This document shows positions 20,156 to 25,777 of a stretch of 37,877 nucleotides of DNA, one piece after another (the stretch's first letter is position 1; each line of letters starts with the position of its first letter). The DNA comes from Novosphingobium sp. (GTDB lineage: Bacteria; Pseudomonadota; Alphaproteobacteria; Sphingomonadales; Sphingomonadaceae), in NCBI GenBank assembly GCA_013822005.1, contig PNJT01000005.1, positions 1 through 37,877 on the forward strand, written 5' to 3'. The notes beneath the pieces were generated by a model. The model did no database searches and was not told the DNA's origin. It saw only the letters and a list, made by a program, of their open reading frames with translations. Both the position numbers and the translations under genes were made by a program.

Positions 20156-21118
20156 ATGTTGAGCCGGGTTGATCCGATGGTGCGGCTGCTCTTGGCCGCG
20201 ATCGCGCTGGCCTTGGTGCTGCCGGTGCAGGGCGAGTGGCGCGGAGCGGCGCAGTTCGTCTCGAACGCGGCGGTGTTCCTGCTGTTCTTCCTCAACGGCG
20301 TGCGACTGCCCCGGCACGAAGTGATGGCCGGGATCGGCAACCACCGGCTGCTCTGGCCGCTGGTGCTGTGGTGTTACGGCGCAATGGCGCTGGCCGGGTG
20401 GCTGGTCTGGCAAGGCGGGCAGGGCTGGATGCCGCCGCTGCTGGCGCTGGGGTTCCTTTACCTCGGCTGCCTGCCTTCGACCGTGCAGTCGGCCACGGCC
20501 TATAGTTCGCTGGCGGGCGGCAATGTCGCCAGTTCGGTGGTCGCCGCGGCCTTGCTCAACCTGCTGGGGGTGTTCATCACCGCGCCGTTGTTTTCGGCGC
20601 TGGCCGGATCGGCAAATGCCGGGTTCAATGCCGATGGGCTGATCAAAGTGGTGGGCATCCTGCTGGTGCCCTTCATCCTGGGTCAGCTTGCGCAGGGTCG
20701 GCTGGGGGGCTGGGTCAAAGGCAACCGTCCGCTGGTGACCGGCATGGACCGGACCTCAATCGCCATCGCGGTCTATGTCGCTTTCTCAGGCGCGGTCGAG
20801 CAGCGCTTCTGGACCCAGATTGATGCTGCCGGGTGGCTGTGGTTGGGCTCTGGTGTCGCTTTGGTGCTATTGGTCGGGCACTTTGGTGCATGGTTGGTGA
20901 GCGGCGTGTTACGGCTTGATCGCCCCAACCGGATCACCATGCTCTATGCCGGCGCGCAAAAGAGCATCGCGATGGGCGCGCCTTTGGCAGCCGTGCTGTT
21001 CCCCCCGGCAGTGGCCGGAGTGATCCTGCTGCCGATCCTGCTTTACCACCTGGTCCAGCTGGTCCTGGCCGCCCCGATCGCCGCACGGCTCAACGCTACT
21101 AATACCAACCTGCACTGA
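20156..21118 (+). CDS. Bile acid:sodium symporter family protein (YfeH-like)
   Basis: Inner-membrane protein of 320 residues with about nine to ten hydrophobic helices. The pattern LLFFLNGVRLP, GFLYLGCLPSTVQSATAYSSLAGGN (in part) and YAGAQKSIAMGAPLAAVLFPP is that of the SBF-like family to which E. coli YfeH belongs. The crossover region with Ser/Thr/Gln around CLPSTVQS matches the sodium-binding part of the fold. The true substrate is unknown. The ORF-track start at 20066 lies in the repeat, so the ATG at 20156 is chosen. The last codons and stop lie inside a 20-base perfect inverted repeat, so the C-terminus NTNLH is contributed by a repeat element. Confidence 0.87.
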   Translation: MLSRVDPMVRLLLAAIALALVLPVQGEWRGAAQFVSNAAVFLLFFLNGVRLPRHEVMAGIGNHRLLWPLVLWCYGAMALAGWLVWQGGQGWMPPLLALGFLYLGCLPSTVQSATAYSSLAGGNVASSVVAAALLNLLGVFITAPLFSALAGSANAGFNADGLIKVVGILLVPFILGQLAQGRLGGWVKGNRPLVTGMDRTSIAIAVYVAFSGAVEQRFWTQIDAAGWLWLGSGVALVLLVGHFGAWLVSGVLRLDRPNRITMLYAGAQKSIAMGAPLAAVLFPPAVAGVILLPILLYHLVQLVLAAPIAARLNATNTNLH

Positions 21119-21156
21119 TCCTGACCCATGAGGACGGGATCAGTGCAGGTTGGTAT
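21102..21156. repeat. 20-bp perfect inverted repeat overlapping the symporter stop
   Basis: The left arm ATACCAACCTGCACTGATCC (21102-21121) is exactly inverted at 21137-21156 with a 15-base loop. The last codons and TGA of the symporter gene sit in the left arm. There is no T run, but the very stable hairpin could terminate or protect the transcript. Confidence 0.9.
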
Positions 21157-21244
21157 AAGGCCGCCTTCGGCCCGACAAGCTCAGCCTAGGCGGGTTTAGG
21201 GTTAGGCCCCGCGCGTCCTGACGACATTTCGCAGAAACGCGAAG

Positions 21245-21330
21245 CCCCTCCCATGTGGGGAGGGGTTGGGGTGGGGGTTCCACGCTGGCGTCGAGCCCCA
21301 CCCCCGACCCCTTCCCGCCGGGGAGGGGAG
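21245..21330. repeat. Palindromic intergenic repeat (family B)
   Basis: Two GC-rich hairpins, CCCCTCCC..GGGAGGGG and CCCCTTCCC..GGGGAGGGG, face each other around a central GGTGGGGGTTCC/ CCACCCCCG pairing. The same layout recurs at 22877, 26507 and, with another stem, at 28669. Confidence 0.75.
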
Positions 21331-21360
21331 AACGCGGCATCAACTCAATGCCATCTGGCC

Positions 21361-21627
21361 CTAAGCCGCCTCGCTCAGCCGTACCGCCACCAACGAAGGC
21401 CGCGCCAACCGCACCTTGCGGACCGGCAGCGCCACAACCGTCCCGTCGTTCCACGAAACCACCGTCTCAGTGATGGTAAAGCGCATTTCGCGCGTGAGGG
21501 GAGTGGCAGCCAACTCCTCCCGCACCGCCTTGAACGCCGGAACCGCCGTACGCACCATCTGGACCAGCGAGCCCAGCGAAACGACCAGGGTGACTGCCAA
21601 AAGAACCGAAAACTCCGCACCCATCAT
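21361..21627 (-). CDS. Small membrane-anchored protein of unknown function
   Basis: 88 residues with a hydrophobic N-terminal helix at about 5-22 (EFSVLLAVTLVVSLGSLVQMV) and a 60-residue soluble part that looks beta-rich (REMRFTITETVVSWNDGTVVALPVRKVR, quoted in part). Two adjacent ATG codons open the frame. I do not recognise a family. The overlapping ORF 21375-21620 in the next frame is Arg/Trp-rich and is a shadow. Coding support is moderate: amino-acid composition is sensible and the frame ends just beside a family-B repeat. Confidence 0.6.
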   Translation of the reverse strand: MMGAEFSVLLAVTLVVSLGSLVQMVRTAVPAFKAVREELAATPLTREMRFTITETVVSWNDGTVVALPVRKVRLARPSLVAVRLSEAA

Positions 21628-21988
21628 CGCCCAAACCTCTCACCCGCGCCCTGTGGAAGGGCTTGTGGAAAACCTGTGGAGCGGTTAGGAAGAGTTCCTG
21701 TTTCGTTCCAGTGGGGTCTTTGTTTCTGATTTGTTCTGGTGTGTCAAGTGGGAAATGCCTGGCCTTTGTGTTGTCGAAGCGGACCATATCAATCGCTCGC
21801 GAGGATGCTTATTGTGAGTGATCCTCGGATAATGCGGGGTTGTTGCAGACTGTTGCCGCCCTTTTGCCATGCGAAAACGCTCTTTTGACACGCCAAGCAC
21901 CTATGCTATCGGCACGAAAGGAAGGGATGGCCTGCTGCCGGTTTGATGGACACCGAGATAAGGTGTTTTATCGAACTGGAGGACCAGC
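21628..21988. other. 360-base stretch without a convincing gene
   Basis: It holds TGTGGAAAA-like strings near 21650-21680 (see rejected items) and an imperfect inverted pair GAGGAT/ATCCTC at 21801-21826. From roughly 21930 there is AT-richer sequence leading into the transposase-like ORF, ending in AACTGGAGGACCAGC, a good ribosome site. This last part is probably the left end of a decayed IS3-family element. Its exact terminal repeat could not be fixed. Confidence 0.5.
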
Positions 21989-22189
21989 ATGGAACGAAGG
22001 AAGTTTACGCGCGAGTTTAAGCTCGAGGCAGTGAGGCTGATCAAGGACTACCTGGGCGTTTCCGACGAAAGCCACATTTTCTTCTGCGGCATCGCGATCG
22101 GTTACGGGATTGCCGACGATCCGGTGAACCAGTTTGACCGCAAGCGCGAGCCGCTGGACAGCAAGGTCAAGTTTCTGGGCTTTGAATAG
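21989..22189 (+). pseudogene. Chimeric ORF: IS3-type OrfA start fused to nitroreductase C-terminus
   Basis: 66 residues. Residues 1-20 (MERRKFTREFKLEAVRLIKD) match the start of IS3-family transposase OrfA. Residues 21-66 (YLGVSDESHIFFCGIAIGYG, then VNQFDRKREPLDSKVKFLGF, quoted in part) match the C-terminal tail of a nitroreductase. They align with the tail of the intact gene just downstream (DIPEDHIFFSGCAIGWGDRDAAVNQF, in part). The join is in frame at about 22048/22049. The simplest reading is that an IS inserted in a nitroreductase paralogue, followed by deletion of everything between. A GGAGG site and ATG make it translatable, but neither half carries a full domain. Confidence 0.8.
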
Positions 22190-22199
22190 GGGCATATCC

Positions 22200-22871
22200 A
22201 TGGACGTTTCGGAAGCCGTCGCCAGCCGCCGCTCGATCCGCGCATTCCTCGACAAGCCGGTCGATCAGGCCGTGCTGCGACGGGTATTGGAGAAGGCCCA
22301 GAACGCGCCGTCGGGCGGCAATACCCAGCCGTGGAACGCGGTGATGCTGACCGGCGAACCGCTGGCCAAGCTGATCGACCTGGTCGCCGAAACGATCCCG
22401 CAGGGGCTGGCCGCCTATTCGGCCGAGTATCCGATCTATCCGGCCGAGCTGGAAGGCCGCTATGCCGCCAGCCGCTTTGGCGTGGGCGAGGCGATGTACG
22501 CTGCCCTCGAAATCCCGCGCGAGGACAAGGCCCAGCGAATGGACGTGTTCCGCAACAACTTCCGTGCCTTCGGCGCGCCGGTGCTGATGCTGGTCCACAC
22601 GCCCCGCTATATGGGCCTGCCGCAGTGGAGCGACATCGGCATGTGGCTGCAGACCGTGATGCTGCTGCTGCGCGAGGAAGGGCTCGATTCGTGCGGGCAA
22701 GAGGCCTGGGCGGTTTACCAGAAGCAGATCCGCGAAGTGGTGGATATCCCGGAAGACCACATCTTCTTCAGCGGCTGCGCGATCGGCTGGGGCGACCGCG
22801 ATGCGGCGGTAAACCAGTTCCCGGTCCCGCGCGTGGGGATCGACGAGGCCGTGACCTGGGTGGGGTTTTGA
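22200..22871 (+). CDS. Nitroreductase family protein
   Basis: FMN-dependent NAD(P)H oxidoreductase of 223 residues. The start of the fold is clear (VASRRSIRAFLDKPV, then NAPSGGNTQPWNAVML), with the FMN-binding Arg-Arg-Ser motif near residue 10 and Ser-Gly-Gly-Asn near 40. The middle has DIGMWLQTVMLLLREEGLDSC, and the tail CAIGWGDRDAAVNQFPVPR closes the flavin site. Family members reduce nitroaromatics, quinones or enones, so the natural substrate is open. The ATG at 22200 replaces the ORF-track start at 22134, which lies in the preceding chimeric ORF. Being next to a decayed paralogue tail suggests an ancestral tandem pair. Confidence 0.92.
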   Translation: MDVSEAVASRRSIRAFLDKPVDQAVLRRVLEKAQNAPSGGNTQPWNAVMLTGEPLAKLIDLVAETIPQGLAAYSAEYPIYPAELEGRYAASRFGVGEAMYAALEIPREDKAQRMDVFRNNFRAFGAPVLMLVHTPRYMGLPQWSDIGMWLQTVMLLLREEGLDSCGQEAWAVYQKQIREVVDIPEDHIFFSGCAIGWGDRDAAVNQFPVPRVGIDEAVTWVGF

Positions 22872-22876
22872 ACAGT

Positions 22877-22983
22877 CCCCCTCCCGCATGCGGGAGGGGT
22901 TAGGGGTGGGCCAGTCCGCCTCAATCTAGAGCTCCGCTTTCCTTGACTCACCCACCCCCAACCCCTCCCGCAAGCGGGAGGGG
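22877..22983. repeat. Palindromic intergenic repeat (family B)
   Basis: Two perfect nine-base hairpins CCCCTCCCG-CATG-CGGGAGGGG (ending 22899) and CCCCTCCCG-CAAG-CGGGAGGGG (22962-22983, to the last G) flank a 60-base spacer with GGGGTGGG/CCCACCCC also inverted. It lies between nitroreductase and cysS. Confidence 0.9.
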
Positions 22984-23020
22984 AGTTGACCGGCGCGTCT
23001 CGATGCGTAAGGCCCGCGGC

Positions 23021-24812: not shown

Positions 24813-25310
24813 ATGAACCGCTTGCTCAAGACTTTCGCTCTCGCCGCGCTGCTGATCGCCGCCTCGCCTGCGCCAAACCCGAACGCCGCGGCGGTCGATC
24901 TGACGCTCACGCGGGCCTATGGGGGCTACTTCAAGGAAAGCGGTCCGAGCGGCGGGGATTGGGATCAGCCGGTCTTTTCCGCCCAGACCACCAAGCTGAT
25001 CAAGGCCAGAAGAAAGCACAACGGCGCGGAGCTGACCGGGCTGTCGTCCTGTGGCTGGCTGTGCGAATGCCAGGACTGGCAGGCCAAGAAATTCGCCTGG
25101 AAACGCACCGCAATCCGCGCGACTGCGCCCGGCAAGCTGGAAGTGACAGTCAAGGTCAATCCCAGTTTCGGCGATTTCGTCACCCAGCGACTGGTGATGG
25201 TGCGCGAAGGCAAGCGTTGGGCGATTGACGACCTGTTCAGCGAAAGCGCACCGATCGGGATCAAGGCGGGCATGAAAAAAGAACTGACCGAGACCCCCGG
25301 CAGCCGATGA
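24813..25310 (+). CDS. Exported protein of unknown function (possibly DUF3828-like)
   Basis: 165 residues with a signal peptide MNRLLKTFALAALLIAASPA. The mature domain begins with a Tyr/Gly-rich segment and has two cysteines in CGWLCECQDW. It ends with a strand-rich part LEVTVKVNPSFGDFVTQRLVMVREGKRWAIDDLFSE (quoted in part). That last pattern, a charged hairpin with KRWAIDD, resembles small lipocalin/NTF2-like periplasmic proteins of the DUF3828 kind, but the match is only by look. A GAGGG site precedes the ATG. Its stop overlaps the next start as ATGA at 25307-25310, implying cotranslation with the RES-domain gene. Confidence 0.7.
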   Translation: MNRLLKTFALAALLIAASPAPNPNAAAVDLTLTRAYGGYFKESGPSGGDWDQPVFSAQTTKLIKARRKHNGAELTGLSSCGWLCECQDWQAKKFAWKRTAIRATAPGKLEVTVKVNPSFGDFVTQRLVMVREGKRWAIDDLFSESAPIGIKAGMKKELTETPGSR

Positions 25311-25777
25311 AACTCTGGCGGCTCACCCGCGCGCCGTTCGTCGCGCTCGACGGCAAGGGCGCGCAGCTGTACGGCGCGCGCTATGCCCCGCGCGGGGTTC
25401 CGGTGGTGAGCCTTGCCAGCGAGGTGGGCCTCGCGGTGCTGGTGGCGCTGCGTTACCAGCCCAAAAATGCCTTGGGCGACCTGGTGGGCATCCCCGACGA
25501 TTTCGTGCTGGGCTGGACTGAGGTGGACTCAGTCCCGGAACGCGTGCCCGATCGCGATGAGGATACGATCCGCGCTTTCGTCGGTGAGTGGCTCGAAACG
25601 CGGCGTTCGCTGACTTGCGCGATCCGTTCAAAAGTGTTGCCCGAAGCTGACGTGATCTACCTCAACCCACGCCACCCCGACGCCGCGCAGGTAGCCCCGC
25701 TCACCACCCGTCCGTTCAGCTTCGCCGAGTGCCTCCACACCCCGCCGATGTTGGACAGCTTTCGAGGCGAAAACTGA
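25307..25777 (+). CDS. RES-domain protein (NAD-targeting toxin family), unpaired
   Basis: 156 residues, matching the RES fold by its landmarks: MKLWRLTR at the start, LYGARYAPRGVPVVSLASEV (the Arg and Ser-bearing core) at 21-40, and SKVLPEADVIYLNPRHPDA at 108-126. Known RES toxins of Xre/RES pairs degrade or transfer from NAD+ and are held by an upstream Xre/MbcA/ParS-type antitoxin. Here the upstream gene encodes an exported protein instead, and no DUF2384-type antitoxin was found next to it. The start overlaps that gene by ATGA. It may be a non-toxic RES homologue, a solitary remnant, or part of a new pairing. Confidence 0.8.
   Translation: MKLWRLTRAPFVALDGKGAQLYGARYAPRGVPVVSLASEVGLAVLVALRYQPKNALGDLVGIPDDFVLGWTEVDSVPERVPDRDEDTIRAFVGEWLETRRSLTCAIRSKVLPEADVIYLNPRHPDAAQVAPLTTRPFSFAECLHTPPMLDSFRGEN

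Follow-up and report, generated by a model that had tools for sequence, protein, structure and literature searches.

A probable rearrangement scar linking an IS3-family left end to the tail of a distant nitroreductase gene in Novosphingobium

Rearrangement scars formed at short homologies, that is by illegitimate events, are known to yield chimeric ORFs. A second relevant system is the IS3-family element whose complete copies, found in three genomes (G008, G154, and G234) and on a Xanthobacter plasmid, measure 1239-1249 bp, possess both ends, and are flanked by 3-base target duplications (CCG, CAC, AAC, and AAA). The intact copy on the Xanthobacter plasmid (L049) encodes an OrfA with the HTH_Tnp_1 domain and an OrfB with the rve core. 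The third is NfnB, a nitroreductase of Sphingopyxis sp. HMH, whose C-terminal arm packs against the partner monomer (PMC8484813).

All three are touched by the locus described here. It lies in a stretch of 37,877 nt, referred to as the window, which is contig C5 of a single draft assembly (2.57 Mb, 287 contigs, 84% complete) whose nearest genomes are those of Novosphingobium. The original prediction from this DNA was an in-frame fusion of an IS3 OrfA start with the tail of a nitroreductase, recording an insertion plus a deletion in a tandem nitroreductase pair.

The IS3 remnant and the fusion ORF

The features around the fusion are the following; NR1 and NR2 denote the upstream and downstream nitroreductase of the pair, and L062 [GenBank:JAGXTB010000058.1] is the locus of the nearest relative.

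21928 to 22047 (at most), + strand: truncated left end of an IS3-family element, left inverted repeat (IRL) TGGCCTGCTGCCGG...; the true right limit lies between 22035 and 22047
21978 to 21982, + strand: GGAGG ribosome site of orfA, retained for the fusion ORF, six bases before the ATG, read from the sequence
21989 to 22189, + strand: 66-aa fusion ORF, with residues 1-16 from OrfA, 17-19 shared, and 20-66 from NR1
22036 to 22047, + strand: junction, a short homology (G)(C)TGATCAAGGA common to IS3 orfA and NR1; it is exact over 10 bp with the nearest known IS copy and may extend to 12
22048 to 22189, + strand: NR1 remnant, comprising the final codons and the stop of the upstream nitroreductase that was lost, from comparison with L062
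22200 to 22871, + strand: NR2, an intact nitroreductase near NfnB of the PnbA subgroup (PDB 7DP0), Pfam PF00881 with E 1.4e-27

A truncated IS3 left end is present as predicted, although it begins at 21928 and not at 21930, reading TGGCCTGCTGCCGGTTTGATGGACACCGAGATAAGG. Over 120 bases (21928-22047) it is 97.5% identical to IS3-type left ends on plasmid pSH2 of Sphingobium xenophagum [GenBank:NZ_CP076559.1] and in genome G103, and 82-86% identical to several further IS copies. The left repeat is in place at 21928; the right end and the target duplication are missing at the window. The rve domain, the DDE integrase core of OrfB, is absent from the remnant and from the whole assembly, in which the IS end occurs only once, with no second copy. 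The IS3 stretch is a remnant and not an element. A phage source was looked for as well and was not found.

Both parents of the fusion ORF were found by sequence comparison. Its start is 84% identical to the N-terminus of an intact IS3 OrfA over 25 aa (E 3e-11). The Pfam model HTH_Tnp_1 gave E 0.008 and 16.8 bits, below the cut-off of 24.1, because just 18 residues are left to match. The end of the ORF shows 85% identity over 59 aa to NR1 of L062 (E 4e-36) and 51% over 39 aa to NR2, the intact gene downstream. Thus, the predicted in-frame fusion is borne out, with its border drawn more finely. Twenty residues had been assigned to OrfA; this is certain for residues 1-16, while residues 17-19 (LIK) are common to both parents and residue 20 belongs to NR1. 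Accordingly, the nitroreductase part is correctly named, but it comprises 47 residues (20-66), not 46. The predicted ribosome site, GGAGG, is found at the same place in the IS copies of G103 and pSH2. The distance from the stop codon of the fusion ORF to the ATG of NR2 at 22200 is 10 bases, as stated originally and as in L062.

Intact NR1 proteins do not open with the first 20 residues of the fusion ORF, and no relative carries the 66-aa ORF. The ORF was detected in no other genome searched, the junction is absent from 196 genomes of the genus, and a literature search for the same construct returned nothing specific. No PF00881 match to the fusion ORF was obtained in the Pfam search; the FMN-binding core is missing, and the 66-aa peptide is probably idle and without function.

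Across the joint, the sequence is ...TTGATCAAGGAGCGC... in the nearest IS copies, ...AAGCTGATCAAGGACTAT... in NR1 of L062, and ...AGGCTGATCAAGGACTAC... in the window. The 10 bases TGATCAAGGA (22038-22047) are the longest word shared by the G103 IS stretch and NR1, and only 3.9e-5 of all possible joints between the two have a match of this length. Depending on the parent IS copy, the shared word may have been 12 bases long. It encodes LIK in orfA as well as in NR1; because it is read in the same frame in both genes, the fusion is in frame by accident.

The nitroreductase pair and the age of the fusion

NR2 contains the whole PF00881 domain well above the cut-off (97.4 versus 23.5 bits). In the nearest relative, L062, which is 92.8% identical at the DNA level over window positions 22036-22912, a complete NR1 of 225 codons directly precedes NR2. 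Comparison with loci retaining two full nitroreductase genes, as had been suggested, revealed an intact NR1 next to NR2 in L062 and at least 18 other loci, with a few to 26 bases between the NR1 stop and NR2. From this arrangement, the tandem pair is ancestral. NR1 is lacking beside NR2 at six loci (L063, L065, L066, L069, L070, and L074), and its presence changes at least nine times on the NR2 tree. These changes indicate repeated loss or gain of NR1; this gene is dispensable and its loss is tolerated. None of the NR1-less loci tested has kept an NR1 tail. At the window locus, the loss of the upstream copy was correctly predicted, only its tail being left; NR1 is dead there, whereas NR2 is intact and still follows the NR1 stop at an ancestral-type distance.

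Of the 141 bases of the NR1 tail, 15 differ between the window and L062, corresponding to 12 synonymous and two nonsynonymous codons. Judged by six outgroups, both amino-acid changes fall on the L062 branch, leaving about 6-7 changes on the window branch, all of them synonymous. With 73-79% of random changes being nonsynonymous, neutrality would give zero nonsynonymous changes in six with a probability of 1e-4 to 4e-4. This pattern argues that NR1 still functioned during most of the period after the split, and that the fusion is recent. Selection on the fusion peptide is a possible reading of the same pattern, but a less economical one than a recent event.

Two loci joined and the explanations considered

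The DNA to the left of the IS end contains two further conserved features.

20156 to 21118, + strand: SBF-like transporter (conserved part), the gene that closes the left synteny block (which spans window 1 to about 21092-21101), from synteny and family match
21361 to 21627, - strand: conserved 88-aa ORF between SBF and the IS, with homologues in two relatives

When the window was compared with the loci of relatives by blastn, two separate blocks were recognized. Positions 1 to about 21092 are collinear with G034:C64, G004:C13, G024:C3, and others, and the sequence from 22036 onward is collinear with a separate locus, tal-cobT-NR1-NR2-cysS, present without NR1 in G034:C22. In G034, G004, and G024 the two blocks are on different contigs. 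NR1 is preceded in relatives by a tal-cobT-DUF2846 region, and in every relative checked the DNA found here left of the IS is a different locus from NR1. Since the left flank is the SBF block and not the NR1 upstream region, the joint is a breakpoint at which two loci meet that lie apart in every relative examined. In G236, the sister genome, SBF (92% identity) is followed immediately by panB, a name read from the sequence and not from a family library, and NR1 has tal-cobT in front of it. In the window's own genome, contig C103 carries the corresponding panB side (92% identical to that of the sister), and C86 carries tal and the start of cobT, breaking off within the latter gene. Identity to the sister is equally high on both flanks of the joint, 92-93%. 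The reciprocal joint, the 5' part of NR1, and the rest of the IS were not found in the assembly, and a deletion, inversion, or translocation, or several steps in succession, would therefore all fit. A candidate for the displaced neighbour of SBF, a TerC-like gene on C97 (69%), was rejected; it sits among other genes of a different cluster, and no such gene follows SBF in the sister.

Homologues of the 88-aa ORF are located beside psd-pssA in G174 and G176, and the genome's own pssA is on C204. It is therefore likely that another breakpoint lies between 21101 and 21361, and the 88-aa ORF may itself be displaced.

Several other sequence elements were noted in these regions. Before the 88-aa ORF, 21694-21708 reads GTTC-N7-GTTC, the alphaproteobacterial LexA-box pattern; the homologous loci L192 and L193 have it too, followed there by a second such box. 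Back-to-back inverted copies of TACCAACCTGCACTGATC lie right behind SBF (21103-21155), and G240 has several near-copies, which are often paired in inverted orientation at a distance of about 270 bases, like the ends of a small mobile element. Palindromic G+C-rich repeats are found at 21242-21332 and 22877-22984, the former matching dozens of sites in the genus and more than 30 in the sister genome. All Rfam matches in the window, including those to both palindromic repeats, lay on repeats and below gathering scores and were taken as chance. At the panB-side end of C103, a stretch reads by eye as an IS630-like transposase tail, adjoined at the contig end beside panB by several tandem copies of GAGGGTATTTAGTGCACTGTCACCGTAATG (L181, C103 9084-9366). 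After cysS (24813-25777), a weak DUF3828 protein overlaps a RES-domain protein, an order kept in several relatives; the RES domain is known from toxin-antitoxin pairs.

Taken together, the comparisons make it very probable that the locus is a rearrangement scar in which an IS3 end downstream of the SBF block was joined to the distant NR1 through the shared word of 10-12 bp, leaving a 66-aa ORF that is likely functionless. An IS3-family element would have been located downstream of the SBF block, separated from it by the 88-aa ORF. The word common to its orfA and NR1 would have served as the join, by a recombination pathway that we infer, connecting the first approximately 110 bases of the IS to about codon 180 of NR1. 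The remainder of the IS and the 5' part of NR1 would have been separated or lost. The insertion plus deletion within a tandem pair proposed originally is upheld as far as the ancestral pair is concerned, but not as a local event. An IS3 insertion just upstream of or in NR1, followed by one deletion of most of the IS and the NR1 front, would account for the fusion and for the missing part of NR1, but cobT-side DNA would then be expected left of the IS; the flank is unlike tal-cobT-DUF2846 and consists of the SBF block and an 88-aa ORF found elsewhere. We regard this local event as very unlikely. A single long deletion from SBF to NR1 would have removed the intervening DNA, but the genome still contains panB, tal, and part of cobT.

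That the joint is absent from the cell and arose as an assembly or binning chimera is unlikely, even though the assembly is a draft, the contig is unique, and the reciprocal pieces stop at contig ends. Usual assembly overlaps require more than a word of 10-12 bp, the IS end is single-copy, and both flanks match the same sister genome at 92-93%. The least credible explanation is that the fusion has been kept as a functional small protein, which might for instance bind NR2 via a swapped C-terminal arm. The retained ribosome site and the purely synonymous changes in the tail on the window branch would agree with it, as would the packing of the NfnB arm on its partner (PMC8484813). A recent event explains the lack of change, however, and the ORF is confined to this genome among those searched; the relatives lacking NR1 do without the tail.

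Expression of NR2 and comparison with known systems

One further feature of the IS end concerns the expression of NR2.

21943 to 21971, + strand: candidate IS promoter TTGATG-N17-TTTTAT, weak, with 8/12 consensus matches, recognized by eye

A standard, stricter sigma-70 scan found no consensus promoter in the IS end. The likely effect today would be a short leader ORF, driven by the promoter and ribosome site of orfA and coupled to NR2, with NR2 possibly under the IS promoter. More specifically, the promoter and start of orfA might have been taken over for NR2 expression, the fusion ORF serving as a leader peptide with translational coupling; the stop codon is still 10 bases before NR2, so such coupling would be kept. 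This takeover is a tentative suggestion, and we consider it rather doubtful. If it applied, the rearrangement would have rewired the nitroreductase pair and not only damaged it.

Irrespective of this, the scar is an ordinary kind of genome decay and leaves general views unchanged. It offers a cleanly resolved case in which an IS remnant and a short shared word gave rise to a chimeric ORF and a genome rearrangement. It also shows that, in a nitroreductase pair with kinship to a herbicide-degrading enzyme, the upstream gene is readily gained and lost while the downstream gene persists.

With NfnB (PDB 7DP0; PMC8484813), the closest solved structure, NR2 aligns over its full length (E 1.1e-76), and NR1 of L062 aligns as well (E 1.4e-45); the NR1 remnant differs in lacking the FMN-binding core, of which the end is left together with the C-terminal arm. 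With IS3-family elements (orfA/orfB, about 1.25 kb) the window shares the left inverted repeat, the ribosome site, and the first 16-19 codons of orfA. In contrast to intact elements, approximately 110-120 bases remain, without orfB, right end, or target duplication. Like other short-homology rearrangement scars, the joint lies at a shared word, here of 10-12 bp, and fuses two unrelated genes; it differs from them in that the fusion happens to be in frame and the spacing to the following gene of the pair is kept.
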